This document shows, in pieces, positions 29,311-36,583 of a DNA stretch of 59,635 nucleotides (position 1 is the stretch's first letter; each line of letters begins with the position of its first letter). The notes under the pieces are model-generated. The model made no database searches. It worked only from the letters and a program-made list of their open reading frames with translations, and had not been told where the DNA came from. The DNA comes from Streptacidiphilus melanogenes (GTDB lineage Bacteria; Actinomycetota; Actinomycetes; Streptomycetales; Streptomycetaceae), in contig NZ_BBPP01000026.1 of assembly GCF_000787835.1 (NCBI RefSeq), positions 3,114 to 62,748 on the forward strand. Reading direction: 5' to 3'. Position numbers and translations under genes: made by a program.

Positions 29311-30270
29311 TCAGTGGGTGACCGTCACCAGACGGTCGGCGGACTTCTCGAACGGGTCGTAGGAGGCCGAGACGATCACCTTCTGGGACGCCGGGGCGCC
29401 GGCGTCCCAGTGCGTCACGCGCACCCGGACCGTGTAGGCGGCGCTCGCGCCGTTCGCCCAGTGGGCGGGCAGCTTGGGCAGCCCGGCGCCGTCGGTGCCG
29501 ATCGTCACCCAGCGGCCGTTCTCCCACAGGTCGTAGGCGAGCGTGGCGTCGAGGGACCCGGCACCGGGCAGCTCCTCGAGCACGCCCGGCTGGAGCCGCT
29601 GCGCGACCGCCGCGCCGGTGTGGTTGGTCAGGGTGTAGCGCAGCACCAGCGGCTTGCCGGGCGCCACCACGTTGCCGCCGGTCAGCGTCTGCACGATCGG
29701 GCCGCCGGTGTGGGCGGTGCCGACCTGGAGGTTCAGCTGCCGGTCGGCCGACGCGCCGCCGTTCTGCGCGGCCACGTTGAAGCCGAACTGGAGGCGGTCG
29801 TCGTTGACCGGCCAGGCCTTGGTCGCGGCCAGGGTGACCTTCCAGGTGTACGTGGCGTGCGCCGGCAGCGTGAAGGTGCTGCCGAACTCGCCGCCCTTGG
29901 GGAAGAAGGAGCCGAGCAGGCCGCCGTCCTGCCCCCCGAACGTCAGGCCCGTCGCGGGCGCGTGGACGGGCGTCACGCTCAGCTTCACGTCGGTCCCGTC
30001 GACCGCGAGCGCCCCGTGCGGGCCGCCGCCGAGCTCGCTGCCGAACGCCACGGCCTTGCCGGAGGTGTTGGTGACGGACAGGTCGAAGACCTTCGCCGCC
30101 CCGCCGGGCATCAGCGGGCCGGACTGGATCCGGCCCAGCGTCATCACCAGCGGGCTGGTGGCGGCCGCCTTCGCGGGCTGAGCGGCCTGCGCCGCCCCGG
30201 GCAGGGCGACGGCGGCGGAAACTGCGGCGACGACAGCGGCCCCGGCGAGGACCTTGCGGCGAACGGACAT
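29311..30270 (-). CDS. Secreted protein with signal peptide, unknown function
   Basis: 319 residues from ATG 30270. Signal peptide MSVRRKVLAGAAVVAAVSAA then VALPGAAQAAQ with an AQA cleavage site. The mature part contains two or three beta-rich Ig-like modules (FDLSVTNTSGKAVAFGS, LRYTLTNHTGAAVAQRL, YTVRVRVTHWD). No catalytic motif. Convergent with the ferritin-like gene (37 bp) and divergent from the Trypco2 gene. Confidence 0.8.
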   Translation of the reverse strand: MSVRRKVLAGAAVVAAVSAAVALPGAAQAAQPAKAAATSPLVMTLGRIQSGPLMPGGAAKVFDLSVTNTSGKAVAFGSELGGGPHGALAVDGTDVKLSVTPVHAPATGLTFGGQDGGLLGSFFPKGGEFGSTFTLPAHATYTWKVTLAATKAWPVNDDRLQFGFNVAAQNGGASADRQLNLQVGTAHTGGPIVQTLTGGNVVAPGKPLVLRYTLTNHTGAAVAQRLQPGVLEELPGAGSLDATLAYDLWENGRWVTIGTDGAGLPKLPAHWANGASAAYTVRVRVTHWDAGAPASQKVIVSASYDPFEKSADRLVTVTH

Positions 30271-30425
30271 GAACGGACCCCCACAGGTGCGCATTTCGTT
30301 GGTCGCCATCGCGGCGACACGGGAAATCCTCACCCACGGCCGTTCGCACCCGATCCCTGTCGTGTCACCGCTTCGCAACAGGCGAAAGCTCGTTCCCAGG
30401 CGCGGACTTCAGGGATCATGGCGGC

Positions 30426-30743
30426 ATGGACGAACACCGCGTCGGTCTCGCCGACGCCATCGAGGCGATCCGCGGCCAGCTCGTCGACGCCGCCGAGCGC
30501 GGCGCCGGGTCCGAGCTGGCCTTCGAAGTCGGGGACATACAGCTGGAGTTCAGCGTCCAGCTGAGCCACGACCGGACGGCCAGGGGCGGCGTGAAGGCAT
30601 GGGTGCTGACGGCCGGCTACGAGTCCGCGCAGGCACGCGCCGAGACACAGCGGGTCAGCGTCACCCTCAGGCCGAAGCGGCGGGCGAGCGGAGCGGACGT
30701 CCTCGTCGGCAATGACGAGGCCCCCGACCTGGACGGCTTCTGA
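30426..30743 (+). CDS. Trypco2 (trypsin-co-occurring domain 2) family protein
   Basis: 105 residues. Pattern GLADAIEAIRGQLVDA, FEVGDIQLEFSVQLS, GGVKAWVLTAG and QRVSVTLRPK matches the Trypco2 domain, known from computational work on NACHT/trypsin conflict systems as a small partner encoded before the large effector. No signal peptide or membrane segment. The start ATG 30426 has no obvious Shine-Dalgarno. It ends 8 bp before the NACHT gene, whose GAGG ribosome binding site overlaps its stop codon, so expression is coupled. Its molecular action is unknown; it may hold the protease inactive or recruit the effector. Confidence 0.82.
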   Translation: MDEHRVGLADAIEAIRGQLVDAAERGAGSELAFEVGDIQLEFSVQLSHDRTARGGVKAWVLTAGYESAQARAETQRVSVTLRPKRRASGADVLVGNDEAPDLDGF

Positions 30744-30751
30744 GGTCAGCC

Positions 30752-33700
30752 GTGACGCATCCTCAACGCGAGCGCATCGCGGCCGTGCTGGGCCGCAGCC
30801 AGGGCAGCGGTTACCTGCTGAGCCCGTGGATGGTGCTGACGGCGGCGCACGTCGTCGGCGAGGAGCCGACGGCACAGGTGGCGATCCCGGGGTTCGGGGG
30901 GCCGAAGACCTGCCGGGTGGTCTGGCGGCGGCAGGACAAGCGGTGCGACGCCGCGTTGCTGGTGGCGGAGGAGGAACTGCTGCCGACCGCGGTGACCCAG
31001 GGGTTCGAACGGCTCTCCTGGGGGCTTCTGCGCGGCCTCACCGCCCGGCGTGGAGCGACGGCGGTCGGTTTCCCCCAGGCGCAGCGGTCGGCCGAACGAC
31101 GGCTGGACAGCGAGCAGATCGTCGGCACGCTGAAGCCCGCCAGCGGACTGATCAGTGGGCGGGCCGTGCTGGACAGCGAGCACGGCGCGCCGCTCGCCCC
31201 AAAGGACGGCTCGCCCTGGGCGGGGATGTCCGGCGCGCCGGTCTTCCTCGACAACTGCCTGGCCGGGCTCGTGCGTTCGGTGCCGCGGCAGTGGGGGGAG
31301 GCGCGACTCGAACTGACCCTCGGCGAGGAGTTCGTGCAGGACGTCGAGGTCCGGCGTCTCTTCGAGCGGAACGACGTCGCGTTCCTCGACACCGTCCTCC
31401 AGCCGCCCGCCGAGAGCTTCGAGGAACGCCTGCGCGCCTACCTCGGCCGGGAGTGGGACAAGGTCAAGATCTACGGGGTCACCCGCTCCGGCGGCGGTGA
31501 CGGCAGCTGGCGGCTCGACATCGCCTACCTCAGCCTGGAGCTGGCCAACCGTGAACAGGCTCGCCGTGACGCGGGCGACGAGGAGGCCGCGCCCGCGTCA
31601 CGGCGCGTCGAGGACGCGCTGGCGCAGCAACGGCGGATCCTGCTGCGCGGGAACGCGGGCTCCGGCAAGACGACACTGCTGCAGTGGCTCACCACGCTCT
31701 CGGCTCGCGACGAACTGCCGGACCAGTTGGCTCAGTTCAAGGGTTGCACGCCGATCCTGCTACGGCTGCGCGCGCTCGCGCGCAGTGGGCAGGCCCTGCC
31801 CGGCCCGGAGGAGTTCCTGAAGGCGTCCGGGAATCCGCTGTCCGGGTTTCCCGGCTCACAGGGGTGGGTCGGCGCCCGGATGGCCGAGGGCCGGGTGCTG
31901 CTGCTCGTCGACGGGATCGACGAGGCGCCGGCGAGTGAGCGCCGCCGGGTGCGGGAGTGGCTGAGCGGGCTGCTCGCCGCCTATCCGGACGTGCGCTGCG
32001 TGGTGACGACCCGCCCCTCCGCCGTCCGCGAGGGCTGGCTCGCCGACCTCGGCTTCGCCGAGCTGGACCTGCTGCCGATGAGCCGCTCCGACGTGGCGGC
32101 GTTCATCGAGCGCTGGCACGCCGCCGCGGCCGCCGGCGCCGGGCCGGACGAGGAGCAGCGGGAACGGCTGGAACGATGGCGGTCCATGCTGACGGAAGCC
32201 GTCGGCCGCAAGCAGGACCTCGGCCGCCTCGCCACCAACCCGCTGATGTGCTCCCTGATCTGCGCGCTCAACGCCGACCGCCAGGGGCATCTGCCGAGCG
32301 GCCGGATGGCCCTCTACGACGCGGCGCTGGAGATGCTGCTGGTCCGCCGCGACGAGGAACGCGGCGTCGACCCGGCCTCCGAGGGCCTGGCCCTCAGCGA
32401 GGCCCAGCAGCAGGCGCTGCTGGGCAAGCTCGCCTACTGGCTGATCCGCAACGGGCAGTCGGAGCTGTCCGCGAGCCAGGCCCTGGCCCGGATCGAGCAC
32501 GCGCTGCCGCAGATGCCGCACATCCAGGGCTCGGCCGAGGCGGTGCTGCGCCACCTGCTGGTCCGCAGCGGGCTGCTGCGCGAACCGGCGCCCGGAGCGG
32601 TCGACTTCGTGCACCGCACCTTCCAGGACTACCTCGGCGCGCAGGCGGCGATCGAGGAGGGCGACATCCCGCTGCTGGTCGACCGCGCCCACGAGGACCA
32701 GTGGGAGGACGTGATCCGCCTCGCCACCGGCCACGCCCGCCCCCGCGAGCGCGCCGACCTGCTCACCCGTGTGCTCCAGCGCGCGGAGGCCGAACCGGAG
32801 CACGCCCACCGCCTCAGGCTGCTGGCGGCGGCCTGCCTGGACATGGCCGTCGAACTCGACCCCGCCGTCCGCGAGGCCGTCACCACGGCCGCCACCGCGC
32901 TGGTGCCGCCGCGCGACGCGACGGCGGCCCGGGAGCTGGCCTCGGCCGGCCCGGTGGTGCTGGAACTGCTGCCCGGCCCGGAGGGCCTGGACGACGAGAC
33001 GGCCCACGCCGTCGTCGTCTGTGCGGGCAACATCCTGAGCGAGCGCGCCCTGCCACTGCTGGCCGCCTACGCGGACCACCCGTACCTGGACGTGCGCGCC
33101 CAGCTGGCCTACTCGTGGCGGAACTTCGACACCGAGGAGTACGGCCGCGAGGTGATCGCGCGGCTGGACCGCTCCCCCGACCTCCGGCTGATGATCAGCA
33201 GCCGGGGCGAGGCGGAGTTCGCCGCCGCGAACCTGGCCGACGTCCGCCGGATCGAGTACTCGGGGGACCTGCCGCAGGACGTCGTCGAGACGCTGCCGCT
33301 CGGCCCGTTGGTCGAGTGGCGACTGCACGAGAACCCGCGCGCGATCGACCTGGCCTTCCTGCGGGACGCGCCGCAGCTGGAGCAGCTGATGGTGATCAAC
33401 TGCTCGGGAGCGCTGGACCTGGCGCCGCTCGCCGGCACGGACATCCAGCGGGTCATCATCCTCGGCTGCCCCGGAACCGCGTCATGGTCCGCGCTGGGAC
33501 GGATGCCGCGGCTCACCCACCTGAGTCTGGCCGACGCCGGGTCCTTCCTCGACGTCCTGCCCGGGGAGCTGGAGGGGATCCTGCAGGCTCCCGCGCTCGG
33601 CTCGCTGCGGGTGATGGCACGGGACCTGCTGCCCGAGGGCTGGCCGACGCTCCGCGCGCACGGCCGGATCACCGCGCTCGACCTGGACGACCTCGACCTC

Positions 33701-33979
33701 GGAAGCCTGTCCCGGCTCGAACCCCTGCCCCGGGTCACCTCGCTGCGGGTGCGGAACCCGCGCCGCGCGGAGCTGCTGCCCGAGCTCCCCCGGGTCTTCC
33801 CCGGGCTCACCTCGCTCTGGATCTACGGCGCGGACGGAGGCGGGCTGCCCACGGACGGCCTGCCGCCGGGCCTGCTCCTCGCCGTGGACGGCGGGCAGCC
33901 GCCCGGCACCGAGCCCGTCGCCACCCCACCGGTCCGCTGGGCCGGCCAGCTCCCCTGGTACCGGCTCCTGGAGCGCTGA
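30752..33979 (+). CDS. Trypsin-NACHT-leucine-rich conflict effector
   Basis: 1075 residues from GTG 30752. Residues ~1-200 form a trypsin-like serine protease with triad H33 (LTAAHVVG), D66 (KRCDAALLV) and S160 (GMSGAPVF). Residues ~290-560 form a NACHT NTPase: Walker A GNAGSGKTTLL (K306), Walker B VLLLVDGIDE (~382-391), and sensor-1-like TTRPS (~419). Downstream come a winged-helix/superhelical segment with VDFVHRTFQDYLGAQA (~620) and HEAT-like helices. From ~870 the protein is a degenerate leucine-rich repeat (LEQLMVINCSGALDLAPL, LTHLSLADAG, ALDLDDLDLGSLSRLEPL). Architecture is that of STAND-type immune proteins: sensor at the C-terminus, oligomerising NTPase, protease output. Confidence 0.9.
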   Translation: MTHPQRERIAAVLGRSQGSGYLLSPWMVLTAAHVVGEEPTAQVAIPGFGGPKTCRVVWRRQDKRCDAALLVAEEELLPTAVTQGFERLSWGLLRGLTARRGATAVGFPQAQRSAERRLDSEQIVGTLKPASGLISGRAVLDSEHGAPLAPKDGSPWAGMSGAPVFLDNCLAGLVRSVPRQWGEARLELTLGEEFVQDVEVRRLFERNDVAFLDTVLQPPAESFEERLRAYLGREWDKVKIYGVTRSGGGDGSWRLDIAYLSLELANREQARRDAGDEEAAPASRRVEDALAQQRRILLRGNAGSGKTTLLQWLTTLSARDELPDQLAQFKGCTPILLRLRALARSGQALPGPEEFLKASGNPLSGFPGSQGWVGARMAEGRVLLLVDGIDEAPASERRRVREWLSGLLAAYPDVRCVVTTRPSAVREGWLADLGFAELDLLPMSRSDVAAFIERWHAAAAAGAGPDEEQRERLERWRSMLTEAVGRKQDLGRLATNPLMCSLICALNADRQGHLPSGRMALYDAALEMLLVRRDEERGVDPASEGLALSEAQQQALLGKLAYWLIRNGQSELSASQALARIEHALPQMPHIQGSAEAVLRHLLVRSGLLREPAPGAVDFVHRTFQDYLGAQAAIEEGDIPLLVDRAHEDQWEDVIRLATGHARPRERADLLTRVLQRAEAEPEHAHRLRLLAAACLDMAVELDPAVREAVTTAATALVPPRDATAARELASAGPVVLELLPGPEGLDDETAHAVVVCAGNILSERALPLLAAYADHPYLDVRAQLAYSWRNFDTEEYGREVIARLDRSPDLRLMISSRGEAEFAAANLADVRRIEYSGDLPQDVVETLPLGPLVEWRLHENPRAIDLAFLRDAPQLEQLMVINCSGALDLAPLAGTDIQRVIILGCPGTASWSALGRMPRLTHLSLADAGSFLDVLPGELEGILQAPALGSLRVMARDLLPEGWPTLRAHGRITALDLDDLDLGSLSRLEPLPRVTSLRVRNPRRAELLPELPRVFPGLTSLWIYGADGGGLPTDGLPPGLLLAVDGGQPPGTEPVATPPVRWAGQLPWYRLLER

Positions 33980-33990
33980 GCGGACGGCGA

Positions 33991-34022
33991 AGGGCCCGGC
34001 TCCCTGAGGGGAGCCGGGCCCT
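33991..34022. terminator. Bidirectional terminator between the NACHT gene and clpC
   Basis: Perfect 14-bp stem AGGGCCCGGCTCCC / GGGAGCCGGGCCCT with a TGAG tetraloop and a T-rich TTCGTTC tail. It serves the two convergent genes. Confidence 0.88.

Positions 34023-34060: not shown

Positions 34061-36583
<2,523 letters not shown>

Follow-up and report, generated by a model that had tools for sequence, protein, structure and literature searches.

Whether a small Trypco2 gene and the protease-bearing NACHT gene behind it form an immune receptor, and what the small partner does, are questions raised by a locus of Streptacidiphilus melanogenes (contig NZ_BBPP01000026.1, positions 3,114 to 62,748; this whole stretch of 59,635 nucleotides is called the window below). 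The two genes are read here, with moderate confidence, as a bacterial switch of the nucleotide-binding leucine-rich-repeat receptor (NLR) type with proteolysis as its output and Trypco2 as its dedicated, non-enzymatic partner. An anti-phage role is probable. The module consists of the following parts, in window coordinates.

30426..30743, + strand: Trypco2 protein, 105 residues, presumed non-enzymatic partner (PF19631, 6.6e-27; no polar catalytic set in 34 relatives)
30752..33979, + strand: trypsin-NACHT-LRR protein, 1075 residues, GTG start (open reading frame, Pfam, AlphaFold2 model; LRR, leucine-rich repeats)
30752..31396, + strand: serine protease domain, residues 1-215 (codons H33 30848-30850, D66 30947-30949, S160 31229-31231)
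31598..32131, + strand: NACHT nucleotide-binding domain, residues 283-460 (PF05729; invariant residues)
31649-31672 and 31898-31924, + strand: Walker A, residues 300-307, and Walker B, residues 383-391
32132..32671, + strand: helical and winged-helix part of the NACHT module, residues 461-640 (model secondary structure; NLRP3 alignment)
32672..33196, + strand: helical repeat region, residues 641-815 (model; HEAT_2 in the long protein at only E 0.12)
33197..33889, + strand: leucine-rich repeats, residues 816-1046 (family profile, model; most variable large segment)

Both open reading frames lay where a sequence-only reading had put them, co-oriented and 8 bases apart, the 105-residue Trypco2 protein preceding the long one. 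The small protein was assigned to the Trypco2 family at 94 bits (PF19631, cut-off 24.2). The long protein was matched by NACHT (PF05729, 9.8e-25, residues 294-458) and by Trypsin_2 (PF13365, 7.9e-9, residues 18-166). H33, D66 and S160, Walker A residues A302-K306 and Walker B residues D387, D390 and E391 were invariant in all 20 rows of alignment A1, which held 20 of the 24 trypsin+NACHT matches (G006, a frameshifted assembly, G016, G026 and G035 were left out); the intact triad and complete Walker motifs claimed earlier were thus borne out. LRR models of Pfam gave no match to the long protein; the A1 profile was matched to solved LRR proteins (best 2.4e-16), which indicates a C-terminal LRR. 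In the AlphaFold2 model (predicted local distance difference test score, pLDDT, 82.1; predicted template-modelling score 0.64) strands were placed 21-28 residues apart over residues 833-1046, about ten leucine-rich repeats, in line with the leucine-rich C-terminus proposed before. Residues 2-207 of the model were aligned with Deg/HtrA proteases, residues 221-743 with the NLRP3 NACHT module (root-mean-square deviation 3.9 over 422 residues) and residues 220-1045 with NOD2/NLRP3 (NOD2 to residue 1044). Profile and structure searches, which had been proposed as a check, thus recovered both the protease and the NACHT fold, and the STAND domain order came out more strongly than claimed, with resemblance to NOD2/NLRP3 from NACHT through LRR. 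By sequence and model, the protein is an HtrA-like serine protease, a NACHT module, a helical region and an LRR in one chain, and thereby has the NACHT with Walker A and B, C-terminal LRR and N-terminal effector domain of a bacterial NLR.

Trypco2 was then located relative to each kind of receptor. With a limit of 5.5 kb and a set of 147 rows, a Trypco2 gene accompanied 47 of 64 trypsin-NACHT proteins, but 2 of 64 NNH1 proteins, 0 of 14 helix-turn-helix (HTH) proteins and 0 of 5 others (domain types here, on the 147-sequence tree and in the Streptomyces counts below were assigned by tblastn, with Pfam checks on some proteins only). A survey of 61 genomes gave a Trypco2 gene within 1.5 kb of all 24 trypsin+NACHT matches, two tandem pairs sharing one gene each, and near protease-only matches (15/18 within 1.5 kb, 17/18 within 6 kb); none of 26 NACHT matches lacking trypsin had one within 6 kb. 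The gene was mostly upstream, and downstream in some loci (L045, L113, L114, L116). A scan of nine protease-match proteins that lacked a good NACHT match gave tetratricopeptide repeats (TPRs) in seven, together with a match to nSTAND5, NB-ARC or AAA. Six of these nine proteins had Trypsin_2 at E 0.01 or better, the other three being recognised by pairwise search only. By these comparisons Trypco2 follows the protease, not the NTPase, and also accompanies trypsins on other STAND-TPR proteins. Conversely, 22 of 61 Trypco2 matches had no trypsin match of the survey within 6 kb. Nine of these loci were fetched (L083-L091): L084 matched the protease in a looser search, a Trypsin_2 domain lay nearby in L088, L089 and L090, and none was seen in the looser search of L083, L086 and L087. 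At L085 (5550-6685) the neighbour of Trypco2 is a LuxR-type regulator that matches VMAP-C weakly, and no trypsin was seen beside Trypco2.

The position of the module was examined by locating ClpC in 27 genomes of the Streptacidiphilus family and reading the stretches around receptor genes. The landmarks downstream of the long gene are:

33991..34022, + strand: terminator-like hairpin between the module and the convergent clpC (z -4.42; rejected by T-run scan)
34061..36583, - strand: clpC, core gene marking the fixed address, outside the module (synteny, Pfam)

A NACHT receptor gene was convergent to clpC in 18/27 family genomes, including 13/14 of the genus; the closest named loci belong to S. 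neutrinimicus, S. anmyonensis, S. pinicola and S. jiangxiensis. Among the nine other genomes, the site is empty in G013, where 82 bases separate the AurF-like gene from clpC; no close match to ClpC was obtained in G014, and the remainder had no receptor match beside clpC by coordinates. The 3' side of clpC was likewise classified in 59 Streptomyces genomes, an evenly drawn sample of 61 with G083 (the centre) and G117 (no ClpC match at the cut-off) left out; this sample overlaps the family sample by at least two genomes (ClpC coordinates of G169/G128 equal those of G035/G021). NNH1-NACHT was found in 21, trypsin-NACHT in 11 and no receptor in 27, five of the last on stretches shorter than 7 kb where receptors were possibly missed. 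The receptor was convergent with clpC at all 32 occupied sites, and Trypco2 was present at this site in 11/11 trypsin-NACHT cases and 1/21 NNH1 cases (L231). A decayed module, with a shortened Trypco2 frame and NACHT scraps, lies beside clpC in L200 (7885-8518). From these states and the decayed copy, the place of the module is constant and its content, in presence or absence and in N-terminus, is not. An accessory island between core genes, as suggested by the sequence-only reading, was rejected on synteny, the module lying at a fixed site beside clpC across the family; the comparison across related genomes that it proposed did yield absences and N-terminal exchange, with one constant address. 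Within the genus the receptor diverges to about 50% identity and ClpC stays at 97-100%. Copies also occur away from clpC: a trypsin-NACHT/Trypco2 pair is carried on a 67-kb plasmid of Streptomyces jietaisiensis, 103 plasmid records have a match to at least part of the long protein, and phage records gave no match to it. Beside clpC, L231 (1561-8830) has an orphan Trypco2 along with two NNH1-NACHT genes in tandem, an arrangement that is possibly an intermediate of N-terminal exchange.

Exchange of the N-terminus was traced on a FastTree tree of the 147 distinct NACHT sequences (identical ones counted once; long-branch warnings were issued). The trypsin label changed 7 times, at least 5 of these forced by starred branches. 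On a tree of 78 clpC-site rows (quick search; the three longest clpC rows and 66 rows away from clpC left out) it changed 3 times, at least 2 forced. The cleanest case joins sister receptors (Shimodaira-Hasegawa-like approximate likelihood ratio test 100): L048, apparently Wenjunlia tyrosinilytica, carries trypsin, and L049/L065, apparently W. vitaminophila, carry NNH1 (PF22733, 2.3e-51). By sequence, one receptor lineage thus bears different N-termini in two Wenjunlia species. Both kinds occur together in the tandem genomes L166, L168 and L218. In L166 (5428-11799) and L168 (5428-11726) the NNH1- and trypsin-receptor genes stand in tandem beside clpC with no local Trypco2, where the NNH1 receptor perhaps replaces Trypco2 as partner. 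A third N-terminus, a Cro/C1-type HTH, occurs on the same kind of NACHT receptor in L052 (4793-7717), the only one of the 14 HTH-NACHT rows checked by Pfam.

For the favoured protease switch, the following sequence of events is proposed. At rest the receptor would be an ADP-bound closed monomer, as in its NLR kin. Its LRR/helical C-terminus would detect the invader, most likely by a protein of the phage or by a change that the phage induces, and ATP-dependent assembly would cluster and so activate the proteases. This step is modelled on NLR kin and on the Hachiman-fused protease, which was switched on by forced dimerisation through a leucine zipper according to Tuck et al. (PMC12799240). Activated proteases would cut a short list of proteins, and arrest or death of the infected compartment would follow. 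Trypco2 would be the protease's dedicated partner, restraint/cofactor or first substrate being favoured over an independent toxin, and the receptor chassis would stay beside clpC with an exchangeable N-terminal output. A broader proposal, put forward tentatively and at somewhat under even odds, is that Streptomycetaceae maintain an NLR address beside clpC at which a NACHT-LRR chassis is retained and the output exchanged (trypsin+Trypco2, NNH1 or nothing), with trypsin+Trypco2 a portable two-gene cassette also used on NB-ARC-/nSTAND-TPR receptors and Trypco2 its safety catch or first substrate. If true, this would be a bacterial NLR-to-protease cascade parallel to the inflammasome-caspase axis.

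Another role for Trypco2 is that of the effector itself, a small pro-toxin cut and released by the activated protease, like the trypsin-activated metallo-beta-lactamase-fold (MBL) pro-nucleases of Hachiman and AVAST. The reported pairs share this layout: their small gene mostly lies upstream of a sensor-fused trypsin, and it is found with unrelated sensors. Against it, a protein of about 105 residues would have to act without a conserved catalytic set: A22 and L81 alone were invariant among 34 Trypco2 relatives, no conserved polar catalytic set was found in them, which does not suggest an enzyme, and no significant PDB relative was obtained (sole match E 0.72). The 17 of 64 trypsin-NACHT proteins that do without a local copy also count against it, and the effector role is considered unlikely. 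The AlphaFold model of Trypco2 was poor (pLDDT 50), so its fold gives no help either way. Its C-terminal tail ends in F105 (window 30738-30740), kept in at least 90% of 20 A4 rows, and this terminal Phe is possibly a docking motif for the protease. (Of 35 trypsin loci, alignment A3 leaves out L109, a frameshifted assembly, and L120, at a contig end; A4 leaves out L109 of 20.)

The module could also be, in place of an immune receptor, a protease switch that serves development or the stress response in mycelial actinomycetes. Its fixed position beside a proteostasis gene in 18/27 family genomes and the NACHT receptor at clpC in 32/59 Streptomyces speak for this, as does long-term maintenance; a core switch would fit poorly with 27/59 Streptomyces in which none was found, one of them decayed (L200), with a receptor near 50% identity where ClpC is at 97-100%, and with an exchanged N-terminus and a plasmid copy. 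This explanation is held improbable, marginally more so than an effector Trypco2. For the 3' side of clpC as a merely permissive insertion point, without functional meaning in the place, the odds are judged even, and it is compatible with the favoured protease switch. The site is met in trypsin, NNH1, tandem, decayed and empty states, and copies exist elsewhere; on the 147-row tree, 17 changes of the clpC/elsewhere label were counted, a number that short contigs may inflate. Convergence with clpC at 32/32 occupied sites of the 59, and retention across several family genera, argue for more than permissiveness.

Several results weigh against the favoured protease switch. The triad is intact in all 17 trypsin-NACHT proteins without a local Trypco2 (alignment for 15, inspection by eye for L166 and L168), and G087, which apparently holds L168, gave no Trypco2 match at all. 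The Trypco2-protease distance correlation beyond NACHT was modest (partial r 0.31, 32 pairs). By Pfam, PADLOC left aside, none of the eight flanking proteins looks like a defence protein. The ratio of nonsynonymous to synonymous divergence (omega) was below 1 throughout; it was as high as the LRR's in Trypco2 (0.14-0.70) and in an unrelated secreted-protein neighbour (0.32-0.61), so that a high value does not single out the LRR, and in two pairs nonsynonymous divergence was larger in the protease than in the LRR. Variation in a classical LRR sensor is expected on the concave face; here most of it lay away from the strands (in four close orthologs, 5% of the 19 polar sites on strands varied vs 44% of 181 other LRR sites), and strand-face diversification was not seen. 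For the sensor reading, the LRR had the highest omega of the long protein's five segments in 9/9 close-relative pairs (0.39-0.89; the nine pairs share sequences), the nucleotide-binding segment giving 0.11-0.38 and ClpC 0.01-0.07. Synonymous divergence was patchy in the module, with protease values as far apart as 0.07 and 0.55 in two pairs, and mostly exceeded that of ClpC (0.05-0.14); mosaic exchange of module segments is suggested but not shown, as flanking MutY also reaches 0.18-0.50.

Given the 17 triad-intact exceptions, strict obligate pairing was rejected. The two-gene pairing proposed earlier survives in a looser form, with Trypco2 by sequence the usual but not invariable partner. Fifteen of the exceptions are Streptomyces-type loci (L096-L108, L117, L118); the eight read had no common upstream partner. 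All 15 genomes carry Trypco2 elsewhere, 13 of them beside a second trypsin-NACHT gene, compared with 21 of 41 background genomes (Fisher p 4e-4; background from 42 of 45 non-trypsin loci, with L150, L168 and L170 left out as assemblies already represented, and L135 also out). Little weight is given to this result because the 15 may be one lineage and at least two background genomes, G087 and G114, apparently hold a trypsin-NACHT gene too. The contig of L117 is titled Streptosporangium nondiastaticum; its locus is very like Streptomyces ones such as L103, and the record name may be wrong.

The module was compared with known systems. Animal NOD2, NLRP3 and NLRC4 (PDB) have the same order of NACHT, winged helix, helical region and LRR; the protease here occupies the place of their adaptor domains, which are CARD and pyrin. 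Bacterial NLRs, or bNACHT proteins, were reportedly described by Kibby et al. in 2023. Bacterial NACHT proteins that bear LRRs are reported to exist, and bNACHT proteins share the NACHT module, N-terminal effector and C-terminal sensor; those described there have NCH1 or SNaCT C-termini and, as effector, a DNase or none that can be recognised, in place of the trypsin-like protease, LRR array and Trypco2 partner seen here (PMC12169576). The long protein had no Pfam match to the NCH1/SNaCT C-terminus of bNACHT clades 6 and 14, models whose presence in the library was unconfirmed. The name Trypco2 dates from 2020, from work on VMAP-MoxR-vWA ternary systems (Kaur et al., PMC7159879), and Trypco2 was called an adapter in 2024 (PMC10907252), the passages concerned being computational in both papers. 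Those ternary systems, with Trypco1/Trypco2, likewise place a Trypco2 gene beside a trypsin-bearing conflict protein (PMC7159879); here the protease shares one chain with a NACHT-LRR receptor, and no MoxR or vWA gene was found among the eight flanking proteins, ClpC giving merely a sub-threshold bpMoxR match. Trypsin + MBL pro-nuclease pairs of Hachiman, AVAST, Lamassu and DRT are also two-gene cassettes of a separate partner and a fused trypsin across unrelated sensors (PMC12799240), the partner being a nuclease there and Trypco2 here: Trypco2, not an MBL-fold gene, is directly upstream of the protease, and no MBL match was found among the eight flanking proteins. The Avs1b equivalog of AVAST type 1 scored 12.4 bits (cut-off 1500) and that of the antiphage NACHT protein EruA 32.1 bits (cut-off 1000), over residues 486-632 only. 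CARD-NLR systems and LypABC also couple a trypsin-like protease to an NLR-like ATPase, as a separate protease and TPR-bearing NLR with a CARD-like domain (PMC13236601); here protease and NACHT-LRR form one chain, unlike the separate CARD-trypsin and TPR-bearing NLR that define CARD-NLR. Proteases in STAND defence are already known (PMC12799240, PMC13236601), as are bacterial NACHT-LRR proteins and Trypco2; within the excerpts of the Creative Commons-licensed literature searched, the trypsin-NACHT-LRR + Trypco2 combination, its fixed address and the exchange of outputs were not found described and appear new. The locus would offer a full NACHT-LRR receptor with a built-in protease in multicellular bacteria that are open to genetic work. 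Its chromosomal address can be predicted, and both absences and N-terminal swaps occur there naturally, which makes the role of Trypco2, and NLR action through limited proteolysis as in inflammasomes, directly testable.

The surroundings of the module were also inspected. The strong terminator claimed for its end was retained as a hairpin just past the stop codon, strong by folding score, and not as a terminator with a T-run acceptable to the scan. No sigma-70-type promoter was found in the scan, and PADLOC gave weak matches only on the locus. By Pfam, the eight flanking proteins are a histidine kinase, an HhH-GPD glycosylase, a TetR, an AurF-like protein, one without a match, ClpC, Lsr2 and a GNAT. 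One neighbour is listed separately:

29311-30309, - strand: secreted-looking protein, divergent neighbour of Trypco2, without Pfam match

This neighbour may belong to the system. G004 has a relative flanked by its two tandem trypsin-NACHT genes (L035 7741-8586), and another small secreted-looking gene occupies the same divergent place in two Streptomyces clpC loci (L184 4643-5377, L200 6710-7426).

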